NCBI GenBank assembly: GCA_037783545.1 | Contig: JBBELK010000570.1 | Span: 434,001 to 498,000, forward strand | DNA from: Henricia sp. BOLD:AAB3569 | Lineage: Eukaryota; Echinodermata; Asteroidea; Spinulosida; Echinasteridae | Reading direction: 5' to 3' | Length of the DNA: 64,000 nt | Shown: positions 1 through 43,440 of the stretch, in pieces | Position numbering within the stretch: the stretch's first letter is position 1 | How the letters are laid out: every line of letters starts with the position of its first letter | The notes under the pieces: generated by a model | The model's database searches: none | The model's input: only the letters and a program-made list of their open reading frames with translations | Told to the model about the DNA's origin: nothing | Program-made: the position numbers and the translations under genes

Positions 1-56
1 GGGATGCTATGGTACCGGTCAGGGAAGGGCTACATCACCATGGAGATGAACAGGAG
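1..56 (+). CDS. RPAP1: RPAP1 exon 1, upstream copy (1a, partial at window edge)
   Basis: Eighteen codons ending DEQE, then a GAG|GTAGGG donor (phase 0). The stretch is 163 bp upstream of a near-identical copy (exon 1b). It reads DAMVPVREGLHHHG where 1b has DAEVPVREG. At the other duplicated exons of this gene the first copy is the one with a genuine acceptor, so this copy could be the spliced one. Its upstream part is outside the window. Reading through its donor meets a TAA before 1b. Confidence 0.6.
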
Positions 57-3000
57 GTAGGGAACTGGTGGTTAGAACTCATTCTAAGATCTCCCTAAAC
101 CCTCGGCCAAGTCCAAGGCAGGGTGCCAGGCTCGGTTTGACTTCAATGGCCAGCTGATAGCCAGGGATGCTGAGGTACCGGTCAGGGAAGGGCTACATCA
201 TCATGGAGATGAACAGGAGGTAGGGAACCGGTGGTTAGAACTCATTCTAAGAGCTGCCAACCGAGATTCCTTGGACTCTCGTGACTCCCAATGTATATAA
301 AAAAGCCTCCTACAGGTTGCCATTTGAAAGTGGCTGGGGTGGGATGCAATATAACCATCTTAAGTCCGAGACACATCATGGCTGCGTTCGGGCGTGCAGT
401 TCTCGCTACTCTGGAGTAATGCGTGCGCATTGCACTCGGGTCACATTACGCGAACGGCAAGTCCGCAGCCGCATGCGCGAATGGCCATCAGTCAAGATGG
501 CCGTCTCTTGCCATGACTGCACAAAAAGCGCTGTTTCACTGCTAACAAGAAACTGAAGAAAATACAGACCGTAAGTCGTAAGAACCAAATCCTACCCATA
601 TTCCGCCATCTTCGTACAAATCACATGACACTCGTCAGGAGTAAGAGCACACTCCCCATTTTTTGGGGAGTAGCGAGAGCATACTCTCGTTGACCCGAGT
701 CTCGTTATTCTTGCCTTTCGCACGCGCGGAGTATACTCGTGTTAACAGGAGTACACTCCCAAACGCAGCCCATATGTCCTAATTGAATTTAGGTGTCCTA
801 AGTTTTATGTGTCTGAAGATACAAGTTATGACACATAAATTTATATTGCAAGACAACATTTATCTATGATATCTCAGTTAAGACGTCTTAGGAGTTAAGA
901 CATCTTAACTTTCTTTATTACAATCCACCCCTGATTCTGAAATTGAGGTTTTTTAAAAAATCTAACCCTCTCAGACATCGCTAATGCAATTTGCTCAATA
1001 AAATTTGTCAGGCCTTGTTAACATGATCTGAAATTTGTTTAAATTCGTTGGCAAATTACAAAGTTGTTTAGGATCAAAATGAAGTAGGACATGTTTACAC
1101 ATAGTAGGCTACGATGATATCTGGCACATGGCATACGCTTTGCTATATCGAATTGGAGGTGGGTCTGTCAACACTAATGGATATATTTGATCAGTGTAGA
1201 TATGAAAAACAGACAAGTAAATATAACATGAAGTATTTGAAGCATGTTGTCCCATTTTGCTCCTTTACATTCTGTATCACCTATTTTCTTCATTGACCAA
1301 AAATATGCCATTTATTCTGAAATTTCAAGAAATTACGGGGGTTTCTTAAAGACATTATGTTCATAACATGGACGGACACTTGTATCTGGAAAGTGATAAC
1401 AGAATTCGTTATATTTAAAAATAATAACCACTTTAAATCTAGCAATGCTAAATGATTTCCCCATCGCGACATCGGCCAATTTCTTGTACGTAACATGGAC
1501 AGACATTTTGTGACAGTTTTCCGTCTATGTTACAAACATAATACATGCAAATCAGTATCCCAGTTAAGAAGACTACTTTTTATTCATGATATTGTCACAA
1601 TTTCCAAAGTTGTAGAGTAAAGTCAGCAGAGTCCACATAACCCTTTAAAGGCTTGGGATGTACTCCGAATAAAAAAAACAAATCAAAATTAATTAACTTT
1701 TTTTCCAAAAATGTCACACCAAATGTGCCCATTAGTGTGGACAGACCCAGGTATGTTTGATTCATGTTTAACCAAACAAGTGTTTTGTCCTTTTTCTTTT
1801 TTTGAAACAAGCAAAGACTTACACTGTATGGCCCATGCATTCTTTAGCATCTACTTCCCTAACTCGGAGGTCAGAAGTAACCATTCCAATGACATCTGTA
1901 CTAATCCCAAAAGTGGACATTGTTTTTGTTTATCAACTTGTCTATAGGTTCCGGGTTATTCATTGGAGGAGCTATTTACCCTGTCTCGCAGTGCAGTCAC
2001 ACCACAACGGGTCCTTGCATTGCAGACACTAGCAAGGGTTATCTATAATGTAAGTTTGTCCAATCAGTATAGACCTGTATCACGGTGCCGCCATCTTCCC
2101 CTTTCTCCTATTAAAATGAACGTAACCAAAGCGAGGCTTGCAGAAAAAAATAGTTTGGTCCCGTTATGAAATTGTTCATTGTGTGCATCACAATGACACA
2201 GGCTTTGCGCGATCAAGAGAGCGTGCTGCGTGGACAGTGATTCCCAATGGGAGATGCACGCACTATCGCGCAGACGCACTGATCGTACCCAACACGTACT
2301 ATGGGGAACAAGACAAAGATGGACGCACCGTGATAAAGGTCTATTGCCTTAAATGCAGTGAACGATGCCGATTGGTTTCCAATAGGATAAAAACATGACT
2401 TGGGACAAATTGCACGAAGCTGTTTAGCAGAAAAATTTGCTTTGCAAAATGGGTTACCAGCCAAAATCATATGTGGTGTGCATTACGATTAACTGGTAAT
2501 CTGCTACTGTTGCGAACTAGACATAAGTTTTGACTGGTAACCTATTTTAGGAAACCAAATAAATGTTGTGCTTAGCAAAAAAAAAAAAAAGCATTGCTTG
2601 CTTTTATAATTTTCTGATGCAATTGCTCGTACAGACAGTCCTGTTAAATTGGAGTACGACATGTATGAGCCCTAAATTTGTGAAAAAGGAGAAATTGCTT
2701 GTTTACTGAAGCATAATTTCAAAATCTTTTGCATTTCCAAAAATGAAATAAACAGTTCTAGTCACTTCTGCTTTGGCCCATAGTGTCGACTAAACCAGCT
2801 GGGCAGTGAGCTGATGGAGCCTTTGATACCTCAGCTACTACAGGCCGGTGTGCTGTTCCTGCTGAGATGGTCCCTGGATGATAGTAACGAAGGGGTGATG
2901 GTGGCAGCCATGGAGGGGCTAGCTGCCCTGTTGGTACAACCAGGAGATGAGGTAGGGATGTGGGGTGCTGGGTTAAGGAGTTAGATACTGTGGAAGCACG

Positions 3001-6000
3001 GCGTGGTCTTCCATGGTCTCTAGAAGATAGCAATGAGGGGGTCATGGGTGCAGCCACAGGGCGCTAGCTGCCCTGTTGGTACAACCAGGAGATGAGGGTA
3101 GGGATGTGGGGTGCTGGGTTAAGGAGTTGGATACTGTGGAAGCACGGCGTGGTCTTCCATGGTCTCTAGATGAAAGCAATGAGGGGGTGATAGGTGCAGC
3201 CACAGGGCGCTAGCTGCCCTGCTGGTACAACCCGGAGATGAGGTAGGGATGTGGGGTGCTGGGTTAAGGAGTTGGATACTGTGGAAGCACGGCGTGGTCT
3301 TCCATGGTCTTTAGATGAAAGCAATGAGGGGGTGATGGGTGCAGCCACAGGGCGCTAGCTGCCCTGCTGGTACAACCCGGAGATGAGGTAGGGATGTGGG
3401 GTGCTGGGTTAAGGAGTTGGATACTGTGGAAGCACGGCGTGGTCTTCCATGGTCTTTAGATGAAAGCAATGAGGGGGTGATGGGTGCAGCCACAGGGCGC
3501 TAGCTGCCCTGCTGGTACAACCCGGAGATGAGGTAGGGATGTGGGGTGCAGGGTTAAGGAGTTGGATACTGTGGAAGCACGGCGTGGTCTTCCATGGTCT
3601 TTAGATGATAGCAATGAGGGGTTGATGGGTGCAGCCACAGGGCGCTAGCTGCCCTGCTGGTATAACCAGGAGATGAGGTAGGGATGTGGGGTGCAGGGTT
3701 AAGGAGTTGGATACTGTGGAAGCACGGCGTGGTCTTCCATGGTCTTTAGATGATAGCAATGAGGGGATGATGGGTGCAGCCACAGGGCACTAGCTGCCCT
3801 GCTGGTACAACCAGGAGATGAGGTAGGGTATGGGGTGCTGGGTTAAGGAGTTGGATACTGTGGAAGCACGGCGTGGTCTTCCATGGTCTCTAGATGATAG
3901 CAATGAGGGGGTGATGGGTGCAGCCACAGGGCGCTAGCTGCCCTGCTGGTACAACCAGGAGATGAGGGTAGGGGTGCAGGGTTAAGGAGTTAGATAGATA
4001 CTGTGGAAGCACGGCGTGGTCTTCCATGGTCTCTAGATGATAGCAATGAGGGGGTGATGGGTGCAGCCACAGGGCGCTAGCTGCCCTGCTGGTATAACCA
4101 GGAGATGAGGTAGGGATGTGGGGTGCAGGGTTAAGGAGTTAGATACTGTGGAAGCACGGCGTGGTCTTTCATGGTCTCTAGATGATAGCAAAGAGATGGT
4201 GATGGGTGTTGCCACAGGGCGCTAGCTGCCCTGCTGGTACAACCAGGGGATGAGGTAGGTATGTGGGGTGCAGGGTTAAGGAGTTGGATACTGTGGAAGC
4301 ACGGCGTGGTCTTCCATGGTCTTTAGATGATAGCAATGAGGGGTGATGGGTGCAGCCACAGGGCGCTAGCTGCCCTGCTGGTACAACCAGGAGATGAGGG
4401 TAGGGATGTGGGGTGCTGGGTTAAGGAGTTAGATACTGTGGAAGCACGGCGTGGTCTTCCATGGTCCCTAGATGATAGCAATGAGGGGTGATGGGTGCAG
4501 CCACAGGGCGCTAGCTGCCCTGCTGGTACAACCAGGAGATGAGGGTAGGGATGTGGGGTGCTGGGTTAAGGAGTTAGATACTGTGGAAGCACGGCGTGGT
4601 CTTCCATGGTCCCTAGATGATAGCAATGAGGGGTGATGGGTGCAGCCACAGGGCGCTAGCTGCCCTGCTGGTACAACCAGGAGATGAGGGTAGGGATGTG
4701 GGGTGCTGCGTTAAGGAGTTAGATACTGTGGAAGCACGGCGTGGTCTTCCATGGTCCCTAGATGATAGCAATGAGGGGTGATGGGTGCAGCCACAGGGCG
4801 CTAGCTGCCCTGCTGCTACAACCAGGAGATGAGATTGGGGGTGTGGGGTGCGGGGTTAAGGAGTTAGATACTGTGGAAGCACGGCGTGGTCTTCCATGGT
4901 CCCTAGATGATAGCAATGAGGGGTGATGGGTGCAGCCACAGGGCGCTAGCTGCCCTGCTGCTACAACCAGGAGATGAGGTAGGGATGTGGGGTGCAGGGT
5001 TAAGGAGTTAGATACTGTGGAAGCACGGCGTGGTCTTCCATGGTCCCTAGATGATAGCAATGAGGGGTGATGGGTGCAGCCACAGGGCGCTAGCTGCCCT
5101 GCTGCTACAACCAGGAGATGAGGTAGGGATGTGGGGTGCAGGGTTAAGGAGTTAGATACTGTGGAAGCACGGCGTGGTCTTCCATGGTCCCTAGATGATA
5201 GCAATGAGGGGTGATGGGTGCAGCCACAGGGCGCTAGCTGCCCTGCTGCTACAACCAGGAGATGAGGTAGGGATGTGGGGTGCAGGGTTAAGGAGTTAGA
5301 TACTGTGGAAGCACGGCGTGGTCTTCCATGGTCCCTAGATGATAGCAATGAGGGGTGATGGGTGCAGCCACAGGGCGCTAGCTGCCCTGCTGGTACAACC
5401 AGGAGATGAGGTAGGGATGTGGGGTGCAGGGTTAAGGAGTTAGATACTGTGGAAGCACGGCGTGGTCTTCCATAGTCCCTAGATGATAGCAATGAGGAGG
5501 TGATGGGTGGGGCCATGGGGGGTTGGGGGGAGGGAGGTGGATAGCTGCCCTGAGATAATTTAGCGGAGGATGACGACATACATGTATTCAGTGCAATAAG
5601 TTTTACGGAATGATGACGTTTTTGCACTGAATGTCGTCATCCTCTGATAAGTTATCTCAGGTTCTCAACAAGTCGGATGACATTTCTAGAGTACATGAAG
5701 GAGTTGTCCCTGAAAATGTTATTCTTTGCTCAGTTTCTGGAAAAAATGGCAGCGCCCATAAAACATTCTTTGTTAAGTCCACGGATCAAACTTGTTCAGC
5801 ACAATGTCTTTTGTTTTTTCAGTGCAATTCCCCTTTAAAGGCCCATGGTATCATTTGCAATGACCCAATTTTGTTTTTCATGAGTTGACAAGAAAAACCT
5901 TACTCAAAGTGTTAATAGCAATGGTAACAAACACCACATGAATTTATCTCCGTCCAAAATGGTATTTCATGCTGGAAATTGACAACCGAAGGTGGTTTTC

Positions 6001-30000: not shown

Positions 30001-33000
30001 ACTGTCCATGTACGTGAGTCTTTCCACGGTAAAGGGGGCATTTTGGCAACACAACTGAAACTTATTTCTTATTTTGAGACCAGACAAAGGTATTTCCTCG
30101 AAAGTATGGTCTTTGTTGCCAAAATTCCCCCTTTACTGTGGAAAGACCCACTTTTCTTCACCTCAGGGAGATGCAAGGGAAGTCAGTCAAGGCTTTACCA
30201 CCGCACATCTTAAGTGCCTTGGTAAACACCTTACGCTGGGTCTACCTGATCGAAACCTGGCGACCTCAGAGTCTTAAGATGGTCCCACAAGCTGCCAAGA
30301 TTGCTCGCGTCTTGAGTGTCTTCTTGACAGGTTAGTGGAAGAGACCTCTAGATCTTAGGATCCTGAGTGCCTTGGTAGACACCTTACGCTGGGTCTACCT
30401 GATCGAAACCTGGCGACCTCAGAGTCTTAAGATGGTCCCACAAGCTGCCAAGATTGCTCGCGTCTTGAGTGTCTTCTTGACAGGTTAGTGGAAGAGACCT
30501 CTAGATCTTAGGATCCTGAGTGCCTTGGTAAACACCTTACGCTGGGTCTACCTGATCGAAACCTGGCGACCTCAGAGTCTTAAGATGGTCCCACAAGCTG
30601 CCAAGATTGCTCGCGTCTTGAGTGTCTTCTTGACAGGTTAGTGGAAGAGACCTCTAGATCTTAGGATCCTGAGTGCCTTGGTAGACACCTTACGCTGGGT
30701 CTACCTGATCGAAACCTGGCGACCTCAGAGTCTTAAGATGGTCCCACAAGCTGCCAAGATTGCTCGCGTCTTGAGTGTCTTCTTGACAGGTTAGTGGAAG
30801 AGACCTCTAGATCTTAGGATCCTGAGTGCCTTGGTAGACACCTTACGCTGGGTCTACCTGATCGAAACCTGGCGACCTCAGAGTCTTAAGATGGTCCCAC
30901 AAGCTGCCAAGATTGCTCGCGTCTTGAGTGTCTTCTTGACAGGTTAGTGGAAGAGACCTCTAGATCTTAGGATCCTGAGTGCCTTGGTAGACACCTTACG
31001 CTGGGTCTACCTGATCGAAACCTGGCGACCTCAGAGTCTTAAGATGGTCCCACAAGCTGCCAAGATTGCTCGCGTCTTGAGTGTCTTCTTGACAGGTTAG
31101 TGGAAGAGACCTCTAGATCTTAGGATCCTGAGTGCCTTGGTAGACACCTTACGCTGGGTCTACCTGATCGAAACCTGGCGACCTCAGAGTCTTAAGATGG
31201 TCCCACAAGCTGCCAAGATTGCTCGCGTCTTGAGTGTCTTCTTGACAGGTTAGTGGAAGAGACCTCTAGATCTTAGGATCCTGAGTGCCTTGGTAGACAC
31301 CTTACGCTGGGTCTACCTGATCGAAACCTGGCGACCTCAGAGTCTTAAGATGGTCCCACAAGCTGCCAAGATTGCTCGCGTCTTGAGTGTCTTCCTGACA
31401 GGTTAGTGGGAGAGACCTCTAGATCTTAGGATCTGGACACCTTACGCTGGGTCTACCTGATCGAAACCTGGCGACCTCAGAGTCTTAAGATGGTCCCACA
31501 AGCTGCCAAGATTGCTCGCGTCTTGAGTGTCTTCTTGACAGGTTAGTGGAAGAGACCTCTAGATCTTAAGATACTAAGTGCCTTGGTAGACACCTTATGA
31601 TGGGTGTACCTGGGGGAGACCTGATGACCTTAGAGTCTTAAGATGGTCCCACAAGCTGCCAAGATTGCTCGCGTCTTGAGTGTCTTCCTGACGGGTTAGT
31701 AGGAGGGACCTCTAGATCTTAGGATTATGAGTGTCGTGGTAGACACCTTACGCTGGGTTGTACCTGGGGAAGACCTGGCGACCTCAGTCTTAAGATGGTC
31801 CCACAAGCTGCCAAAATTACTCGCATTTTGAGTGTCTTCCTGACAGGTCAGTAGCAGAGACCTCTATATTTTAGGTTTCTAGTCCCTACCTGTACACATC
31901 CCAATTGCCATGGTGTACACTCTACAATGTATGCCTGCTAGAGACTGGTGTTTTTTTTATAAGTGAGTTGTTGGAAGTCTCTGACAAGAACTAGCTTGTT
32001 TTTTTATTAGTATTATTTTATTTCTCTCCACAAAAACAAAATCCATATACCCGGTAAAAAAGGAAAATACAATTAAAACAGCAACCAAAATAAATGTGGA
32101 GAAGGCCAGACCGAGGAGGAAAGTAATTTGTTCCTGTCACCAACAGGTTCGGTCTGCCTAAGTACTATAGCACATCAGTTATAGGTACAGGCCCTATCCA
32201 CAAACAATATCCACAAATATCCACAAATAATAATAAAAAAGACATTTATAAATATAAATAGTCAGGATAAAAAAATTACATGGCTGTGATTGATACTTAG
32301 TTTAAGTAGTATATGTTAACTGTCTCATTACCATTCCTAGCTGAAACCAAAAGCTTCAAATATTGTTTGTTTTGTTTTGTTTTTTGTTTTGTTTTGTTAT
32401 TTTTTGTTTGGCCGTTCATCAAAATTACCAGAGATGTGTATTACATGTATAAGGATATAACTGTAGTGAGATTTGCAGATAGTGCTTTTTTTATTTAATT
32501 GTTTTTTGATTAAACGGTTAAACGCCATATCCTTACTCCATGGTATAAAGCAATGCCTAAGAAGACTCCATTAAACATTTAGGCAAAACCAGGCTTTCCT
32601 GATCGTTCTTAGTCAATAATGAGTAGCATACACAATTTCTAAAAAATTATCCAAAGACACCAAATTTCCTGCCTCTTTTTCCTGACTTTACAGGCAGTGA
32701 CTTGTTTCTTGAAGACTCCATCCGTCACTACCTTACCCCTCTACTCAGACTCTACACCCAGCCTGACCACCTCAAGTTGCTGGACTTCGATGCTCCTATA
32801 CCAGGAGTCACCTCCTTCTATGACCTGTGAGTTGTCTTTACTTTGGGTAGACAGAAATTCTGTGATCTGTGGTACCGTGGCCGAGCGGTTTAGGTCATTG
32901 ACTCGCAATCATAGGTGAAAACTTGGGGTTGCAGGTTCGAACCTCCCCACGGCTACGGTACCTGTGCCCTTGGGCAAGGCACTCAACCACACTTGCTCCA

Positions 33001-36000
33001 TCCTTCGGAAGGGATGTAAAGCCGTTGGTCCAGTGTGTTAGGTAATGGAAACGCACTCTAAAGATCACAGAGTGCATTCTTTCATGAAGAGCAAGGGGGA
33101 TCATCCCCGGTGTCTCTGGCCATTTCTAATTCTAATTCTTCATGGGTTTCCTCACGCTTGCGAGTGACAGTGCAATGAGCACTATTGAGGAATCCTTGGT
33201 ATGAATACCAGAAAGAAATAATAATAATAATAATAAATAATAATAAAACACTGTGAAGTTCGCTAGCACCCACCATTTATTACATACAGTTGAAGTCAGA
33301 AGTATAAATACAACTGTATGCAACTAAGGGTTAAAACTGGTGTGCTTACACCATTTTTGTAACAGTCTTTACTAAAATCTTGATTTTGTGGAATTCCTCA
33401 CGTGCATACAGTACTTAAAAACATAGCTTGTACACCTTGCAATGGTTCAGGTAGTCCTGTTTACCATTTTGGGTGATGGTAGTGGTGTACATGTATTTAT
33501 ACTTCTGACTTCAACTGTACATGTACATGACAAAGTTTGAGAAGTTTCAAAACTGTAGGAAACCATATTTCATAATGCATAGTTCCGACCTATCAATCAA
33601 GCCGAACCCATGTCACCATCTATGACCAATCATATTAGCATATCGTTCACAACAGACACACGTGCTTTTAAAGCACATTTTCGCAGAGCTCATCACATTT
33701 TCTTATTCACCTTTTCACATTCAGAGGTCGAAATTAACTTGAATTTTATGTTATCCCACAGGACTAGTCACATCAACATTTCACTAGTCCGCCATCATTT
33801 ATTAGTACATGTAGTCCTACAGAAACGTACACAAACGATTTCTACATTTTGGACATTCGTTAATTGTGTAGTATTGATCAAATACAAAAAGTAAAATAAA
33901 AAAAAATCCTTCAGCTGATTTCACGTACGCATTGCAATAACTACATGCAAGCTATGGTTCTTATGCCATTTTTAAATGTTTTCGCAAGCTACGCACTTCT
34001 TTGTGAAATCGGCTGCAGATCGAGAACCTGAACTTTTTAGTGCCACATCGTTTTGACTCATTGTTTTTCCCAATGTTGAAACGTTAACAGGAAACATTTT
34101 TCTTTATATTGCATAAAAACATGTATAATGTAGTGCAGCATATAGGCCCACTAGCTGGTCGGACTACCAACATATGGCAACTACTAGTCCTCTGGCTAAA
34201 ACCACTAGCCTCGGACTACGGGACTACTGTTAATTTCGACCCCTGACATTGTGTGGGAAAACATTGTAGAGATCTCTTACACCCGTTTCATACAGGCGCT
34301 CCAGAGTCGCGCCGAACTAAATTGTATTTGAAGCGACTTTAGGTCGACACAAATAAAAATTGGTTTCGTACAGGCGAACTTCGCTGCGCGTGATGCCTTT
34401 TAGTCGTTCTGAACGACTGGAACAGTCGATCTTTCGACTTCTGGTGAACCAAGTCGCTCCTAATTGTTTGATACGTCGATCTTTTGGCGAACTTAATTCA
34501 AATTCTAGCAATAATTTAGTTCGGCGCGACTCTGGAGCGCCTGTATGAAACGGGTGTTACATTGCGAGTGAACTGTAACCTTCAGTTTTTGCTTTTGATT
34601 TTCTTAAATCATTGATTAATTCCTAGTTACATGGACGTGTTGACCCAGTATGAAGCAGTGTCGTTTGGAGATCCCCTCTTTGCTCATTTCATTCTACTAC
34701 CGATGCAGCAACGATTCAGCGTTGGGATACGTAAAGCTCTGTGGTGTGAGCATGCTACTGCACTCCGAGCCCTCAATGTCCCACTCTCGCAGGTGACTAC
34801 TATAACTAATAATCGGGGTGTTTCAAAATGTACTCTCTGTCGACCAGAGGGTCAAATTTTCAAGTAATTTGAAAAAACACATCTCTGAACCAGTGTACAT
34901 ACCTTTTGATAAGTGGCAGTGATATAAAATACTTTTTAGCGGGTACATATAAGGGGCTGTCCGAAGTTTGTCAACATTTTCACGGGCCGACAGAGTGTAG
35001 AAAGGGGGAGGGGTGTCGAGGGCTGACAACAAAATAGCTTAGTATTTCGGGGAGGGAGGTGGGGGTCTTGAATAATACTATGCTCTGTTGAAGTCCAGAG
35101 CCGATAAAATCACAAGTCCGTGACAAGTCCCGCACAAGTCTAGTAACAAGAAGCAAGGGATGAACACGCAGAAAAGAATGCCTTTGTTGGAGTTCATTTG
35201 AATAGTTTGTAACTTGAATTAAGACCCAGGGACTTGTGGTGGACTTTTTTGTGATTGACTCGTGATTGACTCGTGATTGACTCGTGATTGACTCGCGATT
35301 GACTCGCGATTGACTCGCGATTGACTCGCGATTGACTCGCGATTGACTCGCGATTGACTTGCGATTGACTCGCGATTGACTCGCGATTGACTCGCGATTG
35401 ACTCGCGATTGACTCGCGATTGACTCGCGATTGACTCGCGATTGACTCGCGATTGACTCGATTAAGAACTAAGGTCAAGTGAGTAAGGCACCCAAGATAT
35501 CACTTCAAGCAACATGGAATCAAGAGTGTTGTCCTTCAGGAAAACTGTGATGTCGGGGTTACGAAGTGGCGGAAAATAAGGTCTTAACATTTTGAAGCTG
35601 AGCTGCAGTCGGATTGTGTTATGGAAACCACTATTTCAAATGTGGAAAGAGCATAAAGCCACACATTGCATGTGATTGGATAACGACTTGAGCTGGCTAA
35701 GGATCATACAAAAGAAGACTACCAATATTTTACATTTTTAATAAATAATTCTTGCAGCTCATCTTGCCGTTGGAGAACTTCCTGCATCCCCAAGAAACCA
35801 ACCTAGGGCTGCTCTCAATCTACCTGGTTTCGTTGGCAAATGGCACCGTGCAGCAGACATGGTGTCCACTCATGTACCTAGTAGCACTACATCACATCAG
35901 TGGGTTTCTATTTGGTCAAACTGGTATGGACCGGCTGGATGCAGTACAGGCTAGACTCGGGCTGCTACGGCAGGTTGCTGCCATTATAAATGAGGTAGGT

Positions 36001-37197
36001 TGAGTTTGGATTGGTCCAACTGGCACCGTGTATCAGGGTGTCTACTCATCACTACATCACATCAGTGGGTTTCTATTTGGTCAAACTGGTGTGGACCGGC
36101 TGGATGCAGTACAGGCTAGACTCAGGCTGCTACGGCAGGTTGCTGCCATTATGAATGAGGTAGGTTGAGTTTGGATTGGTCCAACTAGCAGCGTGCAGAA
36201 GGCATGGCACAAACCAATGATAATGGTATAGACTTGTTGCCAACATACTTATCTGTGGAAACACTGATCAAGGTGCCTCATTATTATTACCCTCGATTAT
36301 GAGGCTCCATTAATATACCATCTCAGCTCCCTGGGCAGTTCAATTGCTTACCAAACCCATAGCATTCACTGCCCTCTCAGATAACCATTTTACTCCTAGA
36401 TGGAGAGAAGTAATGTGTGTCTTGATCAAGGGGACATGCACCATGGATGGACCGGATAGGGATTCGAACCCACAACCTTTAGAACTAACCATGGTTTTGA
36501 ATACGATCCATTAGACCGCTCTGTCATGGCACTCCATAAACTAGGGCCAGAGACACATGGCAAATTGACTTTATCCAAACTGGCACAAACTTGTTCAATC
36601 CAGCCAAAACCTTCTTAAAGCACAGTACATCATTTGCAGTTACCCAAAGTTTTACTTCATGAGTTGACAAGACAAATCCGACTAAAAGTGTTGATAGCAA
36701 TGGTAACAAACACCACATGATTTTTAAAAAGTTGTCTGCAGACAATTTTTTGTATCATTCATTCAACACAAAAACCATACGTGGAATTTTCAGGTTTTCT
36801 AAAGCATTTTTTTTTTTTTTTAAAGCACCTTCAGTAGGCAATTTCTCCCACAAAGGTACAAATTTTCGTGGGAAAAAAATGTGGTGTTTGTAACCATTGC
36901 TATCAACATTTTTAGTTGGGTTTTTCTTGCCAACTTGTGAAGTAAAATTGTTGATAACTGCAAATAATGTATCGGGGCTTTGATAAAGGCCTATACCTTT
37001 GAGAGATATATAATCCATTCATTATTTTCATTCATTTAATCTCTCCATAATTTCCTTCTATTCCTCCGCACCAGGTTGTGCTTCAACATATAACCTGCTA
37101 TCAAGGCCCTGATGCCTCGTCTCCAAACGGATTTAGCATGTATCCCACAATTCCTTCAGAACGATCCGCCATCTTGCAAGCCGCTCAGAAGAGGTAG
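1..37197 (+). CDS. RPAP1: RNA polymerase II-associated protein 1 (RPAP1), C-terminal part, 20 exons
   Basis: RPAP1 binds RNA polymerase II and is known from other animals to act in polymerase assembly or nuclear import and in the polymerase-Mediator link. The conceptual exons follow the order and spacing of vertebrate RPAP1 as I know it. The conserved block ARFDFNGQLI...GLHHHGDEQE is followed by GYSLEELFTLSRS, RLRYILEV, HSLEAAHDVMKCPRL, AGRNMAASL, RELYPLLM, LPGIRNLYMVF, WVYLIETWRPQSL, EAVSFGDPLF, LPMQQRFSV and TWCPLMYLVALHHISGF. Exons 1b-20 sum to 3,186 coding nt (1,062 codons) plus TAG, close to the matching part of the human protein. Every junction is GT-AG and keeps phase. The start codon and N-terminal region are upstream of the window. 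Introns range from about 0.7 to 4.5 kb and are repeat-rich; five carry tandem copies of the preceding exon's 3' end. The helical repeat character is inferred, not computed. Confidence 0.95.
88..219 (+). CDS. RPAP1: RPAP1 exon 1, downstream copy (1b)
   Basis: Up to 44 codons, open from about 88 to the GAG|GTAGGG donor (phase 0). It contains the RPAP1_C-type block CQARFDFNGQLIARD and GLHHHGDEQE. The only AG near its 5' edge (87-88) lacks a pyrimidine tract, because the sequence before it is duplicated intron from copy 1a. It keeps the acidic residue (DAE) that 1a has changed to Met. I cannot decide which copy is spliced; exon 2 joins either in phase. Confidence 0.65.
376..768. mobile_element. 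MITE with GGCTGCGTT termini (intron 1)
   Basis: The left end reads GGCTGCGTTCGGGCGTGCAG; the complement of the right end reads GGCTGCGTTTGGGAGTGTAC. The interior has several GAGTA/TACTC motifs. No coding sequence is seen, and the superfamily is not clear. Confidence 0.5.
1158..1751. mobile_element. MITE with GGGTCTGTCxACACTAATGG termini (intron 1)
   Basis: The left end (GGGTCTGTCAACACTAATGG) and the complement of the right end (GGGTCTGTCCACACTAATGG) match. Between them is AT-rich non-coding DNA. The rest of intron 1 (769-1157, 1752-1947) shows nothing else I recognise. Confidence 0.5.
1948..2049 (+). CDS. RPAP1: RPAP1 exon 2
   Basis: Thirty-four codons, phase 0 to phase 0, acceptor TCTATAG and donor AAT|GTAAGT. 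Encodes VPGYSLEELFTLSRS and QRVLALQTLARVIYN, the second half of the RPAP1_C-type conserved block. Length and register match the vertebrate protein across the join with exon 1. Confidence 0.95.
2050..2783. other. Intron 2, no gene
   Basis: Holds a likely fold-back around 2405-2500 (TGTTTAGCA / GGGTTACCAG...CTGGTAA) and a poly-A run near 2577. No other structure recognised. Confidence 0.5.
2784..2951 (+). CDS. RPAP1: RPAP1 exon 3 (founder of the 145-bp array)
   Basis: Fifty-six codons, phase 0 both sides, acceptor GGCCCATAG, donor GAG|GTAGGG. Contains LIPQLLQAGVLFLLRWSLDD and LAALLVQPGDE. The gap between VIYN and QAG is 22 residues, as in the vertebrate protein, which fixes the start. Its last 85 nt and the first 60 nt of the next intron are the founder unit of the tandem array that follows. 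Confidence 0.95.
2867..5551. repeat. 145-bp minisatellite made from the exon 3 donor region, about 19 copies
   Basis: Each unit is about 85 nt of exon 3 (ATGGTCCCTGGATGATAG onward to GGAGATGAG) plus about 60 nt of intron 3 (GTAGGGATGTGGGG to GGTCTTCC). About 18 derived copies follow the founder. Nearly all keep GAG|GTAGG at the copied donor. All derived copies share a one-nt loss (GCAGCCACAGGGCGCTAG) that brings TAG into the exon frame, so they cannot encode the exon. The last copy (about 5472-5551) is degenerate. Long minus-strand open frames here are by-products of the repeat. Confidence 0.96.
5833..6206. mobile_element. MITE, ATCATTTGCA family (intron 3)
   Basis: Ends read TTTAAAGGCCCATGGTATCA and the complement of TGATACATATAGCCTTTAA. 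The interior has the family signature CATGAGTTGACAAG...GGTAACAAACACCACAT. Related copies lie near 36612-37000, 50540-50760 and 63820-64000. Confidence 0.65.
6303..6467 (+). CDS. RPAP1: RPAP1 exon 4
   Basis: Fifty-five codons, phase 0 both sides, acceptor CTTGTTTTAG, donor AAG|GTAACC. Begins DTLDRVFIWHRGLE, then an acidic low-complexity stretch (EENVTDEGEEIQDKDK) and ends AKQDVIK. The acidic linker followed by DVIK is typical of RPAP1 at this point. It joins exon 3 directly, so the 145-bp array between them is intronic. Confidence 0.95.
6719..7065. mobile_element. MITE, GGGTCTTTCCAC family, TA target site (intron 4)
   Basis: Left TA|TGGGCCTTTCCACGGTAAAG, right complement TGGGTCTTTCCACAGTAAAC, with TA on both sides. 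A Tc1/mariner-type MITE. Other members: 30011-30151 and about 58755-59175. Confidence 0.7.
7320..7905. mobile_element. MITE-like repeat with GGGTATTTCCAT / ATGGAATGACCC ends (intron 4)
   Basis: Termini are inverted and the interior contains AATAATTTACAAACAGTTAG and CACGACGTAAGG. About 160 nt of it recurs at 17685-17845. Non-coding. Confidence 0.5.
8080..8614 (-). mobile_element. TTCGCCC-motif MITE, copy 1 (intron 4)
   Basis: Ends match TTAAAGGCAGTATACATTGG and its partner AAGATAGTATACATGATTGG. The interior carries many copies of a degenerate 12-14 nt motif around TTCGCCCYRAACCA in both orientations. Orientation is opposite to the other four copies. Confidence 0.75.
8612..8750 (+). mobile_element. 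SINE family A, 5'-truncated
   Basis: Has the tRNA-like B-box GTGGGTTCGAGTCCGACCC and the family tail CGAGCACACTATGAAG...CTCGGGGAAGCACCGAGTATG. Lies about 60 nt before exon 5. Confidence 0.7.
8811..9018 (+). CDS. RPAP1: RPAP1 exon 5
   Basis: Sixty-nine codons plus one nt, entering in phase 0 and leaving in phase 1. Acceptor TTTCCACAG, donor CAAG|GTAAGG. Encodes RRLRYILEVVRPPAPIIL, ILIRISRHSLEAAHDVMK and CPRLMQTILTEFLP, among the best conserved segments of the family. Confidence 0.97.
9684..9781 (+). CDS. RPAP1: RPAP1 exon 6
   Basis: 98 nt, acceptor TTACTTGCAG, donor CTG|GTAAAT. The phase-1 G from exon 5 completes a Glu codon. Encodes IVTNLYGYPVVSAIKLIKVL and CLAGRNMAASL, matching the vertebrate LLRVLASAGRNIAARLL region. 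Confidence 0.96.
9782..10928. other. Intron 6, includes a 235-bp MITE-like pair
   Basis: Inverted ends GCATACCTGCCAAC (about 10154) and GTTGGCAGGTATGC (about 10388) bound a short non-coding insert. This resembles a hAT-type MITE, but I see no clear target duplication. The rest holds nothing I recognise. Confidence 0.45.
10929..11086 (+). CDS. RPAP1: RPAP1 exon 7
   Basis: 158 nt, acceptor TACTACAG, donor TACAG|GTCGGT, leaving in phase 2. Encodes GGKLMPIIVRYITQEPPD, LNIAEAFQLSTTSLHVW and VNYGLACDYY. The Trp-then-YG pattern matches the vertebrate LRLWAVAASYGQ segment. The donor is slightly weak at +3. Confidence 0.94.
11248..11508. mobile_element. MITE, GGGTCATTCTATAAATTTGGGG family (intron 7)
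   Basis: Ends are TGGGTCATTCTATAAATTTG and its complement; TGC flanks both sides. Related copies at about 13125-13275 and 39548-39800 share the CTGTCCCC..TTACA interior. Confidence 0.7.
11921..12160 (-). pseudogene. Tc1/mariner-type transposase, C-terminal fragment
   Basis: On the minus strand one frame gives PIEQLWDE. After a frame change come RRVSARDNPPVNAQ, EWNNLPQACNRNLVDSMR and AHGGHTHY followed by TGA. WDELGRRV...EW..IPQ...LV.SM and a terminal GGHT.Y are typical of Tc1-like transposases. The upstream DDE core is missing and the frame is broken, so this is a dead remnant in intron 7. Confidence 0.85.
12148..12262 (+). pseudogene. Second Tc1-type transposase fragment, inverted to the first
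   Basis: Encodes ELLPWCSCSPDLNPIDN, the hallmark SPDLNPI(D/E) motif near the last acidic catalytic residue of Tc1-like DDE transposases. One nt is missing after that, then DELGRRVSARDNPPVNAQ follows in the next frame. It overlaps in content with the minus-strand fragment, making a roughly 200-bp inverted repeat. Confidence 0.8.
12381..12578 (+). CDS. RPAP1: RPAP1 exon 8
   Basis: 198 nt, acceptor TTTTTCAAAG, donor ATGAG|GTAAAT. The split AG/G codon restores Arg to give RELYPLLMQQ, followed by LSIHPPMCNEE and RASAFISLLEGVVNVAGM. This matches vertebrate RELYPVLM...STHPP. Confidence 0.96.
12670..13130. repeat. GACTTGACTTGAGACTCGAA low-complexity repeats (intron 8)
   Basis: Imperfect arrays of GACTTGA and GAGACTCGAATCTCAAAT at about 12675-12830 and 13040-13130. 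Non-coding. Confidence 0.8.
13125..13275. mobile_element. MITE fragment, GGGTCATTCTATAAATTTGGGG family
   Basis: Right half of the element seen at 11248-11508, ending GGACCCCAAATTTATAGAAT. From 13276 to exon 9 I recognise nothing. Confidence 0.6.
13786..13990 (+). CDS. RPAP1: RPAP1 exon 9
   Basis: 205 nt, acceptor CCCCCACAG, donor CAACAG|GTTAGT, leaving in phase 0. Encodes SNDHTALQQAPPSINWSHV, ADLQRPLAFCCSRWLSEM and LLNFLASFYEKYTQQ. Register with the vertebrate protein is kept, though identity is lower here. Confidence 0.93.
14109..14830 (+). repeat. SINE family C with nine tandem tRNA-like heads (78-bp period)
   Basis: Nine copies of GCCTCATAGCTCAGCTGGTA-GAGCATCTGCC, each with a good tRNA A-box. 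Eight are spaced 78 bp apart and joined by AGAGGTCTTGGGGAAAACCTGAGGGAGTATACCACT. Only the last unit reaches a B-box-like GTTCAAATCCCGAC. The 78-bp period leaves a 299-codon open frame, which I regard as an artefact. Lies about 118 nt after the exon 9 donor. Confidence 0.85.
14865..15297. mobile_element. MITE, GGGTAATTCCCCAAATTAGGGGTCC family (intron 9)
   Basis: Left GGGTAATTCCCCAAATTAGG; right CCTAATTTTGGGAATTACCC. A related copy is at about 48700-49115 (GGGTAATTCTTAAAATTAGC). Non-coding. Confidence 0.7.
15770..16270 (+). mobile_element. TTCGCCC-motif MITE, copy 2 (intron 9)
   Basis: Runs from CATTGGTAATCTCGAAAATC to CCAATCATGTATACTATCTT. It has the CTCATGAGATGAAAATTCAA pivot and inverted arrays of TTCGCCC motifs. 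It ends about 90 nt before exon 10. Confidence 0.75.
16363..16472 (+). CDS. RPAP1: RPAP1 exon 10 (donor duplicated by a SINE)
   Basis: 110 nt, acceptor TTCTAAAACAG, donor CTAAA|GTAATC, leaving in phase 2. Encodes ECLQNIEQLVDVSLVPF and TFYNVMINL. The donor lies inside the 12-bp target-site duplication AACCTAAAGTAA of a SINE. An identical motif with a stronger context (GTAAGT) occurs at 16816-16827. Using the downstream donor would put a TAA straight after CTA AAG. Confidence 0.9.
16477..16815 (+). mobile_element. SINE family A inserted at the exon 10 donor
   Basis: Flanked by the perfect 12-bp duplication AACCTAAAGTAA (16465-16476 and 16816-16827). Contains a tRNA-like part (TTAAGACGTCTGCC...GGAGGTCGTGGGTTCAAATC) and the family tail CTCGGGAAAGCACTGAGTAT. 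Both ends carry the complementary motif TTAGGGTTTGCCC / GGGCAAACCCTAA. Confidence 0.88.
17191..17678. mobile_element. Fold-back mariner-type MITE, 488 bp, TA target site (intron 10)
   Basis: TA-flanked, with long inverted arms starting AACTCCTCAAAAAAAGTTCG and continuing far inward (GAAAGTCAAGTTTGACTGAC, TTTGTGACATTTCACTTT). The two halves pair over most of their length. The AGTTCGGAAA terminus is typical of mariner-like elements. No transposase is present. Confidence 0.85.
17880..18035 (-). mobile_element. SINE family A (intron 10)
   Basis: The minus strand reads TGGTGGTCGAGTGGTTAAGA, CATCTGCC, AGAAGGTCGTGGGTTTGAGT and CCCGCCTGAGCACACTATGA: complete A- and B-box tRNA-like region. The remaining intron 10 sequence to 18549 shows only AT-rich DNA. 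Confidence 0.8.
18550..18745 (+). CDS. RPAP1: RPAP1 exon 11
   Basis: 196 nt, acceptor TTGCTTTCAG, donor AAG|GTAGGC, phase 0 out. The split codon AA/A gives Lys, then FQSSLRYEDGVKSAPPASLP, a variable linker, and AIGLLRLVYTLLKIHKGVAA. That matches vertebrate LLSLLNTLAQIHKGLCG. A family-B SINE begins about 27 nt after the donor. Confidence 0.95.
18772..19015 (+). mobile_element. SINE family B (intron 11)
   Basis: Begins ACCGTGGCCGAGTGGTTTGG (tRNA-like A-box), B-box GTGGGTTCGATACC, body GAGCAAGGCACTTAACCACA, CTTCAGAAAGGATGTAAAGC, AAAGATCCCAGAGCACTCTT and GGTGTCTCTGGCC. It lacks the (AAT)n tail of other copies. Confidence 0.85.
19283..21040 (-). mobile_element. Non-LTR retrotransposon, 5'-truncated, with reverse transcriptase
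   Basis: An open frame of 457 codons (20988 down to 19615) encodes a reverse transcriptase. It shows FPSFWKTATIVPIPK, LRPISLTPIFARVFE, the palm motif CAIDFTKAFDRVNHN, CGVPQGTKLGPILFLILVND, the catalytic WKYVDDLTIGE and ILEYGSQVWH near the C-terminus. The order fits jockey/CR1-group LINEs. Upstream of 20988 the same frame still looks homologous (KAGHPSDLP) to about 21010-21040. The endonuclease and the rest of the 5' part are missing. The 3' untranslated part runs to about 19283 and ends in an AATAATAATAAT tail after ACCAGAAA. The intact RT frame suggests a fairly recent insertion. It lies antisense to RPAP1, directly before exon 12. Confidence 0.92.
21042..21191 (+). CDS. RPAP1: RPAP1 exon 12 (founder of the 117-bp array)
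   Basis: Fifty codons, phase 0 both sides, acceptor TTTCTTGACAG, donor AGTGTG|GTAAGG. Encodes FCPIVENTYVTSYLKRICKH then RFEHQALYYLLRIYHSV, matching the vertebrate LQNYFLQC...LRHEYHLQYLALALA segment. The last 90 nt plus the first 27 nt of intron are the founder unit of the array that follows. Reading on past the donor stays open for several units. A retrotransposon in antisense orientation ends at or within a few nt of the acceptor. Confidence 0.94.
21102..24448. repeat. 117-bp minisatellite from the exon 12 donor region, about 29 copies
   Basis: Each unit is 90 nt of exon 12 (GGACACGGTCTGTCATCCCA to ATAGTGTG) plus 27 nt of intron (GTAAGGCATTGG to GTTACTTTTA). I count 29 copies before a transposon at 24449 and one more after it (25400-25498). 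Most keep GTG|GTAAGG. The first five copies are all 117 bp and stay open in the exon frame. Copy 6 (near 21720) loses one T (TAGCTTGCCCG) and ends the frame at 21758. Later copies differ by small substitutions (CACAGCG, GGACGCTG) and one-nt losses. Confidence 0.97.
24449..25399. mobile_element. 951-bp Harbinger-like non-autonomous element in the exon 12 array
   Basis: Perfect 42-bp terminal inverted repeats beginning TGCTACGTTTACACCATGTC, flanked by the 3-bp direct repeat TAA (24446-24448 and 25400-25402). It interrupts GTGGTAAGGC of a 117-bp unit. The interior is GC-rich, in contrast to its surroundings, with further CCCCGGCAGTCCCGG motifs. The 3-bp TWA target fits PIF/Harbinger. No transposase seen. 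Confidence 0.88.
25400..25498. repeat. Last 117-bp unit, separated by the transposon
   Basis: Continues from AAGGCATTGG through TCTGTCATCCCATCTTGGGT to CACTCTACCTGCTTGGAAT. It is the 30th copy, with a damaged end and no intact donor. Confidence 0.85.
25698..25840 (+). CDS. RPAP1: RPAP1 exon 13
   Basis: 143 nt, acceptor CTCCCCAAG after a pyrimidine-rich run, donor ATAGT|GTGAGT, leaving in phase 2. Encodes AQQAESCHQYSNLYHSAALV and FARLQPGDEYYIHDLMSSV, matching vertebrate ATHAALYHGMALALLSRLLPG. It follows exon 12 in phase 0, so the 4.5-kb array region between them can be removed as an intron. Confidence 0.95.
25880..26125 (-). mobile_element. SINE family C, single head (intron 13)
   Basis: The minus strand reads TGCCTTATAGCTTAGCTGGA (A-box) and GGTCTAGGGTTCAAATCCCA (B-box). 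The plus-strand body is CTCTCGGTGTTGCATGGTAG and AACGAACGCAACATATGG. Starts about 40 nt after the exon 13 donor. Confidence 0.8.
26135..26185 (+). mobile_element. SINE family B fragment
   Basis: Short 5' piece: TTACCGTGGCCTAGTGGTTT, GGGTCATTGACTCTCAATCA, then unrelated sequence. Confidence 0.6.
26310..26577. repeat. 38-bp minisatellite, 7 copies (intron 13)
   Basis: Unit TTGTTGGAAAGTGTTTAAGA-CCAGACTCTGTCGCCCAA. The same TTAAGACTGG motif recurs at about 26660 and 27005, suggesting expansion inside a larger transposon-like repeat (26310-27100). Confidence 0.9.
27144..27350 (+). CDS. RPAP1: RPAP1 exon 14
   Basis: 207 nt, acceptor CTTTGCACAG, donor TCCAG|GTAAAT. The split codon GT/T gives Val. 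Encodes GDPIAVDLADRLTVST, TRGELLQGAYDHLPGIRNLY and FFGTAKEALAKS. Matches vertebrate DFSDQLSL and CQDLPSIRNCYL. Confidence 0.95.
27403..27809. mobile_element. MITE with CCTTTTCCAAATCTCG ends, TTA target (intron 14)
   Basis: Left CCCTTTTCCAAATCTCGACT, right complement CTTTTTTCCAAATCTCGGCT; TTA on both sides. The interior is rich in GGCTCC/GGAGCC hexamers. The 3-bp TTA suggests Harbinger-type. No other structure in 27810-28198. Confidence 0.55.
28199..28556 (+). mobile_element. SINE family B, full length (intron 14)
   Basis: ACCGTGGCCGAGTGGTTTGC and B-box TGCGGGTTCGAACC, with body motifs as in other copies. The 3' end is GGTATGAATACCAGAAAGAA followed by (TAA)n. Confidence 0.88.
28785..28910 (+). 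CDS. RPAP1: RPAP1 exon 15
   Basis: 126 nt, acceptor GGTTTTCAG, donor AAAGC|GTGAGT. Encodes DSFILPEFNGPLLPVDWMFL then PLLHLYTEAQK, matching vertebrate LLLPMPTEPLLPTDWPFLPLIRLY. Leaves in phase 2. Confidence 0.95.
28911..30010. other. Intron 15, no gene recognised
   Basis: Unassigned, mostly AT-rich sequence. Around 29340-29480 there are short inverted motifs (GGAGACTGCACTAGCAGTTTT / GGCTGGAGACTTGATTACTA). I see no exon-like sequence in frame with RPAP1. Confidence 0.5.
30011..30151. mobile_element. MITE, GGGTCTTTCCAC family, ending just before exon 16
   Basis: GAGTCTTTCCACGGTAAAGG and the complement GGGTCTTTCCACAGTAAAGG bound about 140 bp. Its right end is 15 nt from the exon 16 acceptor AG, so the branch-point region lies inside it. 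Confidence 0.75.
30167..30330 (+). CDS. RPAP1: RPAP1 exon 16 (founder of the 153-bp array)
   Basis: 164 nt, acceptor CTTCACCTCAG, donor TTGACAG|GTTAGT, leaving in phase 1. Encodes ALVNTLRWVYLIETWRPQSL and MVPQAAKIARVLSVFLT, matching vertebrate VLQWVLVLESWRPQAL...AARLARLMCVFL. The last 118 nt with 35 nt of intron form the repeated unit. Read-through meets TAG immediately after the donor G. A MITE ends about 15 nt before the acceptor. Confidence 0.96.
30213..31870. repeat. 153-bp minisatellite from the exon 16 donor region, about 11 copies
   Basis: Unit is 118 nt of exon 16 (AGTGCCTTGGTAAACACC to TTCTTGACAG) plus 35 nt of intron (GTTAGTGGAAGAGACCTC to AGGATCCTG). Eight copies repeat exactly every 153 bp (30213 to 31284) and are almost identical. 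A ninth lacks about 16 nt, and the last two are diverged. Each keeps GACAG|GTTAGT or a variant. ATCTTA occurs just before the repeat start in the exon and near the unit's intron end. Confidence 0.96.
31871..32693. other. Rest of intron 16, no gene
   Basis: Possibly a 3' piece of an inverted retroelement at about 31995-32300 (ATTTCTCTCCACAAAAAC ... CCAACAGGTTCGGTCTGCC). Otherwise AT-rich sequence with a TGTTTTG run near 32370. Confidence 0.35.
32694..32826 (+). CDS. RPAP1: RPAP1 exon 17
   Basis: 133 nt, acceptor GACTTTACAG, donor GACCT|GTGAGT. Encodes SDLFLEDSIRHYLTPLLRLY then FDAPIPGVTSFYD, matching vertebrate DSELFRESPVQHLVAALL and LPGLTSFPDLY. Leaves in phase 2. A family-B SINE starts about 44 nt into the next intron. 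Confidence 0.95.
32871..33245 (+). mobile_element. SINE family B, full length (intron 17)
   Basis: TACCGTGGCCGAGCGGTTTA, B-box GCAGGTTCGAACC, body TTGGGCAAGGCACTCAACCA and GGTGTCTCTGGCCATTTCTA. The 3' end GGTATGAATACCAGAAAGAA is followed by a long (TAA)n run. Confidence 0.9.
34280..34556. mobile_element. 277-bp Harbinger-like MITE, perfect 44-bp TIRs, TTA target (intron 17)
   Basis: Both termini read CACCCGTTTCATACAGGCGC and on through CGCGCCGAACTAAATT. They are flanked by TTA at 34277-34279 and 34557-34559. Interior rich in GTCG/CGAC. No coding sequence. Confidence 0.9.
34627..34792 (+). CDS. RPAP1: RPAP1 exon 18
   Basis: 166 nt, acceptor TCCTAG, donor TCGCAG|GTGACT, phase 0 out. Encodes MDVLTQYEAVSFGDPLFAHF, ILLPMQQRFSVGIRKALW and CEHATALRALNVPLSQ, near the best conserved part of the C-terminal region (vertebrate [25 protein letters not shown]). 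Confidence 0.97.
34793..35757. other. Intron 18, with an 11-bp minisatellite
   Basis: At 35252-35461, about 19 tandem copies of GATTGACTCGC, the first few with GTG for GCG. The 11-nt period keeps all three minus-strand frames similar, which explains a serine-rich open frame there. Rest unremarkable. Confidence 0.85.
35758..35994 (+). CDS. RPAP1: RPAP1 exon 19 (partly duplicated downstream)
   Basis: Seventy-nine codons, phase 0 both sides, acceptor TTCTTGCAG, donor AATGAG|GTAGGT. Encodes LILPLENFLHPQETNLGLLS, NGTVQQTWCPLMYLVALHHI and LDAVQARLGLLRQVAAI, matching vertebrate RPRWCPVLYAVAVAHVNSF. Its last 154 nt and 26 nt of intron are repeated just downstream. Read-through meets TGA seven nt past the donor. 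Confidence 0.96.
35841..36210. repeat. Tandem duplication (165-180 bp) spanning the exon 19 donor
   Basis: Unit is 154 nt of exon 19 (TGGCACCGTGCAGCAGACAT to ATAAATGAG) plus 26 nt of intron (GTAGGTTGAGTTTGGATTGG). A second copy (36021 to about 36185) has an internal 15-nt loss and its own GAG|GTAGGT. A third begins at about 36186 (AGCAGCGTGCAGAAGGCATG). Confidence 0.93.
36445..36530 (-). mobile_element. tRNA-like sequence (Leu-type), probably a SINE head
   Basis: The minus strand reads GACAGAGCGGTCTAATGGAT (A-box) with TTGTGGGTTCGAATCCCTAT (B-box) and an anticodon-like TTCAAAA. Acceptor-stem pairing is poor, so I do not call a functional tRNA gene. Confidence 0.5.
36612..37000. mobile_element. 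MITE, ATCATTTGCA family (intron 19)
   Basis: Inverted arms: GTACATCATTTGCAGTTACC...GGTAACAAACACCACATG pairs with CATTTTTTTCCC..GTGGTGTTTGTAACCATTGC...GCAAATAATGTA. Ends about 70 nt before exon 20. Confidence 0.65.
37075..37197 (+). CDS. RPAP1: RPAP1 exon 20 (terminal, with stop)
   Basis: Forty codons plus TAG, acceptor TCCGCACCAG, phase 0. Encodes VVLQHITCYQGPDASSPNGF and MYPTIPSERSAILQAAQKR. This matches the vertebrate C-terminus (HLLHYKLPNS...FELYSQLPPLRQHYLQ) in length to within about ten residues, so the protein ends normally. Confidence 0.94.
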   Translation, partial: VVLQHITCYQGPDASSPNGFSMYPTIPSERSAILQAAQKR

Positions 37198-42904: not shown

Positions 42905-43440
42905 GAACATAATACTTAGTGTGGTGCCTAGTCAGGATTGTTGAAATGAAACAACCAAACTTGGGATGAGAGAAAAATCATATGGGCCTTATCATATGGT
43001 TCAAACCTGAGACCTCTGACTCGCCAGGCAGATGGTCTACCGGCTGAGCTATGAGGCACAGTGGTATACTCCCTCAGGTTTTTCCAAGACCTCTGACACA
43101 CCAGGCAGATGCTCTACCAGCTGAGCTATGAGGCACAGTGGTATACTCCCTCAGGTTTTCCCCAAGACCTCTGACACATCGGGCAGATGCTCTACCAGCT
43201 GAGCTATGAGGCACAGTGGTATACTGCCCCAGGTTTCCCCAAGACCTCTGACACGCCGGGCAGATGTTCTACCAGCTGAGCTGTGAGGCACAGTTGTATA
43301 CTCCCTCAGGTTTTCCCCCAAGACCTCTGACACACCAGGCAGATGCTCTACCAGCTGAGCTATGAGGCGCAGTGGTATACCTGAGGTTTTCCTACGGATC
43401 CAACTTTTCTCTCAGTGTGGGACTAGTCGGGAGATGATAT
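42905..43440 (-). repeat. SINE family C with five tandem tRNA-like heads
   Basis: Minus-strand heads GCCTCATAGCTCAGCTGGTA occur five times, about 78-84 bp apart. A single B-box-like GGTTCAAACC sits at the 3' side (about 43000) and the body GAAACAACCAAACTTGGGAT follows. Same architecture as 14109-14830, in the opposite orientation. Confidence 0.85.

Follow-up and report, generated by a model that had tools for sequence, protein, structure and literature searches.

In the sea star Henricia sp., tandem arrays whose repeat unit straddles a splice site lie at the edges of coding exons, five of them in the gene RPAP1 and the others at nine further loci. We interpret them as near-neutral boundary minisatellites of the mirage kind, tolerated because splicing would use the site contiguous with the remainder of the exon, and put the probability of this reading at about 0.86. 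The anatomy of the arrays, their occurrence at both boundary types, the unequal copy numbers on sister contigs, the decay of many extra copies and the homogenisation within arrays were seen directly in the assembly.

Results

Five donor-spanning arrays in RPAP1

The window analysed is a stretch of 64,000 nucleotides (C570:434001-498000); negative positions denote sequence upstream of its start on the same contig. RPAP1 occupies the first 37 kb: translated exons match the Pfam profiles RPAP1_C (1.3e-24) and TPR_RPAP1 (1.5e-23), and the joined 3′ exons match TPR_RPAP1 at 7.7e-63. The gene model, with 20 coding exons between -3576 and 37197, was picked from listed segments that are open from splice site to splice site and has profile support for part of its exons. 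When exons were scored singly, the combined splice and codon score exceeded 20 in 18 of the 20, for some with other ends. Exon numbering differs from that of the initial annotation, whereas RPAP1 coordinates are the same in both.

Across the span of the gene, TRF delineates five arrays with a period above 100 bp, all on the plus strand. Each starts within a coding exon and crosses its donor; with the limits set by TRF, the first-copy unit extends past the donor by 29, 60, 27, 35 and 55 nt of intron, in this order. This bears out the initial annotation of five donor-crossing arrays, which gave their reach as 26-60 nt. The first array (-240..252; 163 bp x3.0) belongs to an exon upstream of the window, identified as exon and ORF at -315..-107 (C570:433685-433893), and has 252 nt inside the window. 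Those nucleotides (1..252) are the intronic copies 2 (from -77) and 3, so that the two in-window copies previously read as an exon end are both intronic, the authentic exon being at -315..-107. The other four arrays begin likewise with the 3′ end of their exon as first copy. The second (2867..5509; 145 bp x18.3) follows the exon 2784..2951, whose translation falls within the RPAP1_C query and whose acceptor lies at 2784 or further in. The third (21102..24427; 117 bp x28.6) follows the exon 21042..21191, taken from the splice-to-splice ORF list; its tail carries an inserted element with terminal inverted repeats, recognised by reading the sequence (24450..25398), beyond which blastn recovers a remnant copy (25400..25503). 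The fourth (30213..31875; 153 bp x11.0) follows the exon 30167..30330, placed by Pfam profile in the TPR_RPAP1 domain, and the fifth (35885..36195; 165 bp x1.9) follows the exon 35758..35994, whose start was set by eye. Four of the five copy numbers given earlier (2, ~19, ~30, ~11 and 2-3) fit these values; the first array has 3 copies, not 2.

When the exon models were compared with the gene by blastn (E<=1e-3), extra exon copies appeared at five of the 20 exons only, all downstream; the other 15 had no extra copies, and the reverse strand gave 0 matches. Random placement within the gene would put all five units on donors with p ~1.5e-6, or on any splice site with p 4.3e-5, both values being post hoc because the gene was chosen for carrying the arrays. 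Among 12 units, five of them from RPAP1, no two have any sequence in common (blastn, E<=1e-3). The absence of shared sequence noted earlier is thereby confirmed, and the proposal that the events were independent agrees with everything observed, as does the proposal that the extra copies are tolerated as intron.

Other elements lie close to these arrays. A MITE-like short inverted-repeat element stands where the 145-bp array ends, at ~5550-5665, and on the minus strand at ~20000-21020, just upstream of the 21042 exon, the sequence gives the impression of a LINE reverse transcriptase-like fragment. Tandem rows of tRNA-like sequence (TAGCTCAGCTGGTAGAGC) with a 75-78 bp period occur at 14132-14811 and 43010-43380 of the window, and also at L041:3609-3908 and L042:3453-3915; possibly they are a SINE head multiplied in place.

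Boundary arrays elsewhere in the genome

The genome (740.7 Mb, 2104 contigs) was surveyed by exon-by-exon profile searches, in which arrays appear as regular rows of matches that were then read as DNA. As a positive control, the RPAP1 exon at 30167 and its copies gave 10 matches. Sensitivity is partial, a 4.2-copy donor array on C22 having appeared as a single match. Two dynein domains yielded 107 and 123 matches in 96 and 87 exon groups, with repeated matches in 10 groups. One of these (C596:314000-315200) looked repeat-like in the match list and contains no array in the DNA. With the sister contigs C571 and C22 counted as one, the other nine amount to eight loci, of which five are donor-type and three acceptor-type. 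Donor-type arrays were found on C217 (DYNC1H1; TRF 132 bp x7.3) and C571 (a dynein; 109 bp x9.7), together with three 2-copy cases on C298, probably in one dynein gene, two of which are too diverged for TRF and were read by eye. Acceptor-type arrays were found on C596 (DNAH3; 157 bp x5.6), on C571/C22 (a dynein; 139 bp x4.8 and x2.8) and on C406 (DNAH1; 152 bp x22.3). The Adaptin_N family, with 60 matches, added one acceptor-type locus on C480 (145 bp x7.6), in a gene that we take to be COPG-like. A further candidate in an adaptin-family gene, C105:628600-629800, proved to be a pair of diverged 108-bp exons about 670 bp apart, possibly mutually exclusive exons.

Nine loci thus lie outside RPAP1, five donor-type and four acceptor-type, with 2 to 22 copies per locus. 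They correspond to a rate of ~4% (9 loci per 183 exon groups plus 60 Adaptin_N matches), or ~2% after adding 83 myosin and 132 kinase matches, where sister contigs enter the exon totals twice and the myosin search was stricter (E<=0.001). No regular clusters were seen by eye among those 83 myosin (E<=0.001) and 132 kinase matches, and two myosin stretches totalling 16.2 kb contained no boundary array; the rate therefore differs between genes.

That no expansion spans an acceptor, as stated in the initial annotation, holds within RPAP1 (0 of 5) and fails for the genome, where four of nine loci outside the gene are acceptor-type. A donor-linked mechanism, or tolerance at donors only, would have expansions arise or survive solely across donors. 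The 5:0 ratio within RPAP1 (p 0.0625, beside the placement value of 1.5e-6 above) and the three further donor cases on C298 favour such an explanation; however, as an absolute rule it is contradicted by the four acceptor-type loci, which carry 4.8 to 22.3 TRF copies, and the ratio of 5:4 outside RPAP1 (p 1.0) leaves no donor-only rule in the families surveyed. Over all 14 loci the ratio is 10:4 (p 0.18), and RPAP1 compared with the rest gives a Fisher p of 0.22. In amphioxus, too, the repeat of BflGb6 is acceptor-type (PMC3087553). We consider a donor-only explanation improbable.

Arrays away from RPAP1 were also collected from the other ~223 kb of a 264-kb stretch, which holds few exons. TRF reports eight of period >100 bp there, at least three of them tRNA-like, and three of the eight were read for exon overlap: one follows a stop codon, a second starts 4-6 nt into an intron at a donor, and the third has no clear exon. 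A 120 bp x11.8 array (C570:407754-409152; -26246..-24848) lies just behind the stop codon of the minus-strand gene DRC5/TCTE1, and so in or near its 3′ UTR, and a perfect 165-bp x2.0 duplication on the minus strand (C570:383302-383637; -50698..-50363) starts ~4-6 nt into the intron at a donor and is a near-boundary case. Our rough impression is that boundary arrays are commoner than arrays elsewhere, so tolerance may not be the only thing that favours exon edges.

Decay, homogenisation and copy number

Many of the extra copies have decayed. Those of the 145-bp RPAP1 array carry stops and frameshifts, and unit lengths reveal 1-nt deletions in some copies of the 117-bp array. Open frames persist in a number of copies of the 163-, 117- and 153-bp arrays, and therefore not all copies look dead. 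Homogenisation takes several forms. Identity in the 145-bp array is 93-97% among the extra copies and 87-94% between them and the exon copy. The exon copy of the 153-bp array is matched by copies 2-7 at 99.3% or better, and by copies 8-11 at 82-91% with gaps counted or 87-98% without gaps. Concerted evolution from which the array ends are excluded would fit the 145-bp array, whereas in the 153-bp array the exon copy is not set apart. The 117-bp array contains a higher-order repeat of eight units, with five successive unit pairs at least 99.5% identical.

The intronic part of the unit was compared with its own exon in nine cases by mononucleotide shuffles, a tenth case offering only 4 nt. In the 35885 array and on C571 this part consists mostly of decayed exon sequence (0 of 500 shuffles), and therefore the duplication there ended at or near the donor. 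The signal is weaker in two of the nine cases (p 0.006 and 0.004) and was not seen in the remaining five, so the idea that every unit's intronic part is decayed exon, clear in only two of nine, was set aside. TRF defines a unit at 12 of the 14 loci; these units are 109 to 185 bp long, with a mean of 147 bp (sd 21). The mean is close to the length of a nucleosome, although exon size alone may explain this closeness.

Copy number was unequal at all three sister-contig loci read. The donor array has 9.7 copies on C571 against 4.2 on C22, and the acceptor array 4.8 against 2.8; on C480 the acceptor array has 7.6 copies, while on C70 the real exon is accompanied by a single decayed copy (about 2). 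C571 and C22 are 90-98% identical over four main aligned pieces, and C480 and C70 85% identical over 413 columns with 52 gaps. Sister contigs are probably haplotypes, but they could be recent duplicates instead. The 145-bp RPAP1 unit was found on one contig only.

Splice sites within the copies and their use

Donor motifs are widely retained in the copies. The first RPAP1 array has GAG|GTAGGG in 3/3 copies, the 117-bp array has identical 9-mers at 28 of 29 donors, and a donor score of at least 8.4 is kept in 12/13 (145 bp), 10/11 (153 bp), 7/7 (C217), 3/3 and 2/2 copies. These counts refer to copies found by probe, which for the 145-bp array are 13 of ~18, the missed ones having a 1-nt insertion at the site. 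Retention of this kind, together with a splice-site window left unchanged in four of eight arrays, is what one would expect if the extra sites were selected as decoys or splicing regulators, for instance as additional U1 sites in the intron. However, in those same four arrays 15-84% of all unit windows are also unchanged, and across the eight arrays 14.5-83.5% of windows are no more variable than the splice site. In no array is the splice-site window exceptional, and this window-by-window comparison gave no clear sign of selection on the extra sites. The stops and frameshifts of the 145-bp copies and the variable copy number between sister contigs also speak against such a role, which we rate as slightly less probable even than the donor-only explanation.

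Which site is used was approached through reading frame and protein continuity. In DNAH1 (C406), joining the exons at the last acceptor gives a gapless alignment to a solved protein; in DNAH3 (C596), the same kind of join gives matched segments of equal length, 97 residues on each side (coordinates only); and in DYNC1H1 (C217), exons joined at the first donor align without a gap. These gapless or equal-length joins suggest that, at both exon ends, the authentic site is probably the one contiguous with the remainder of the exon. Use of the first donor and the last acceptor would be what exon definition predicts, which would remove the proposed asymmetry between donors and acceptors. The earlier argument, that extra donors may be tolerated and extra acceptors not, was lopsided, in that exon definition would tolerate downstream donors and upstream acceptors alike.

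That the arrays are an assembly artefact is the least likely account, for although the same assembly contains a mitochondrial genome concatemer, differences between copies are ordered (a higher-order repeat, distal decay), one array is interrupted by an inserted element, and at two loci an array with the same unit is present on both sister contigs.

Mitochondrial sequence

Contig C955 holds the mitochondrial concatemer, with a period of 16,221 bp and three COX1 copies, and is probably an assembly artefact; another COX1 lies on C2104. The mitochondrial COX1 reads AAA at an Asn, ATA at an Ile and AGA at a Ser, as in the echinoderm code, those residues being the ones that we presume at these positions. 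The gene order, read by eye, is cox1-trnR-nad4L-cox2-trnK-atp8, with the tRNA cluster beside cox1 mostly on the minus strand; we take both to fit sea stars. Amphioxus, an earlier candidate for the host, drew no support from a weak test: amphioxus possesses GFP genes, and the GFP profile PF01353 had no match in this genome.

Discussion

The initial annotation knew of no described class for such repeats. In fact one exists: repeats at exon-intron boundaries of the amphioxus genes Adh3, BflGb6 and BflGb9 have been named mirages (PMC3087553), and lancelet PGBD5 repeats, in one gene and with 2 to 7 copies, have been described together with a citation of troponin C (PMC3902484). Mirages occur at both boundaries, differ between haplotypes (6 and 3 units), evolve in concert and, by RT-PCR, seem to leave splicing normal, and intron gain from them is proposed (PMC3087553). 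Somatic instability has been reported for Adh3 of amphioxus.

The Henricia arrays resemble mirages in several respects. Their unit spans an exon-intron boundary in all five RPAP1 arrays and at nine further loci (two 2-copy cases by eye). Either the 5′ or the 3′ boundary is affected, RPAP1 alone being exclusively donor-type, and the repeats carry splice signals, donors as well as acceptors. The unequal copy numbers at the three sister-contig loci would parallel the haplotype differences if those contigs are haplotypes rather than recent duplicates, and protein continuity in three dyneins would agree with normal splicing in amphioxus. Unlike amphioxus mirages, these arrays are from an echinoderm, reach 22-29 copies and number five at the donors of one gene. 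Literature searches that covered a minority of the subscription journals listed no mirages in echinoderms, which does not prove their absence from print; passages of an amphioxus huntingtin paper mention tandem repeats, none of them at boundaries (PMC2206037).

Two further systems are related. Variable tandem repeats at human exon-intron boundaries were described for recent gene duplicates in segmental duplications, with the weight on new introns made (PMC2812944). In the intron gain by tandem duplication around AG/GT proposed by Rogers (as told in PMC3087553), the duplicated sequence likewise holds splice signals; here an existing intron is lengthened, and a new intron is not shown.

The course of events can be outlined as follows. 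The arrays show a tandem duplication that takes one exon edge with a short piece of intron, or breaks at the splice site itself. The copy contiguous with the remainder of the exon would stay the real exon end, and the others would turn into intron. Later amplification and homogenisation within the array are likewise shown, as is the decay of extra copies as intron. The engine would be unequal exchange, with arrays growing and shrinking under little selection, and exon definition would be the filter, the spliceosome taking the first donor or the last acceptor. The donor-only pattern of RPAP1 (5/5) is not predicted by reading the arrays as boundary minisatellites.

A wider proposal is tentative, and we would sooner doubt it than adopt it: that boundary minisatellites are common and fast-changing in this genome, prefer exon edges through boundary-linked mutation, are nucleosome-sized, and represent an old or recurrent deuterostome trait shared with cephalochordates. 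If it were true, arrays with as many as 29 donors or 22 acceptors would serve as natural experiments on spliceosome site choice and as a source from which new introns and exons could come.

The present data correct a donor-only rule that a single gene had suggested, and bring mirages, a curiosity described in some genes of amphioxus, into a further phylum. Within one genome, many additional copies of a splice site are tolerated at either end of an exon, so that natural alleles offer a test of how a splice site is chosen (first donor, last acceptor) and of how introns grow or are gained.
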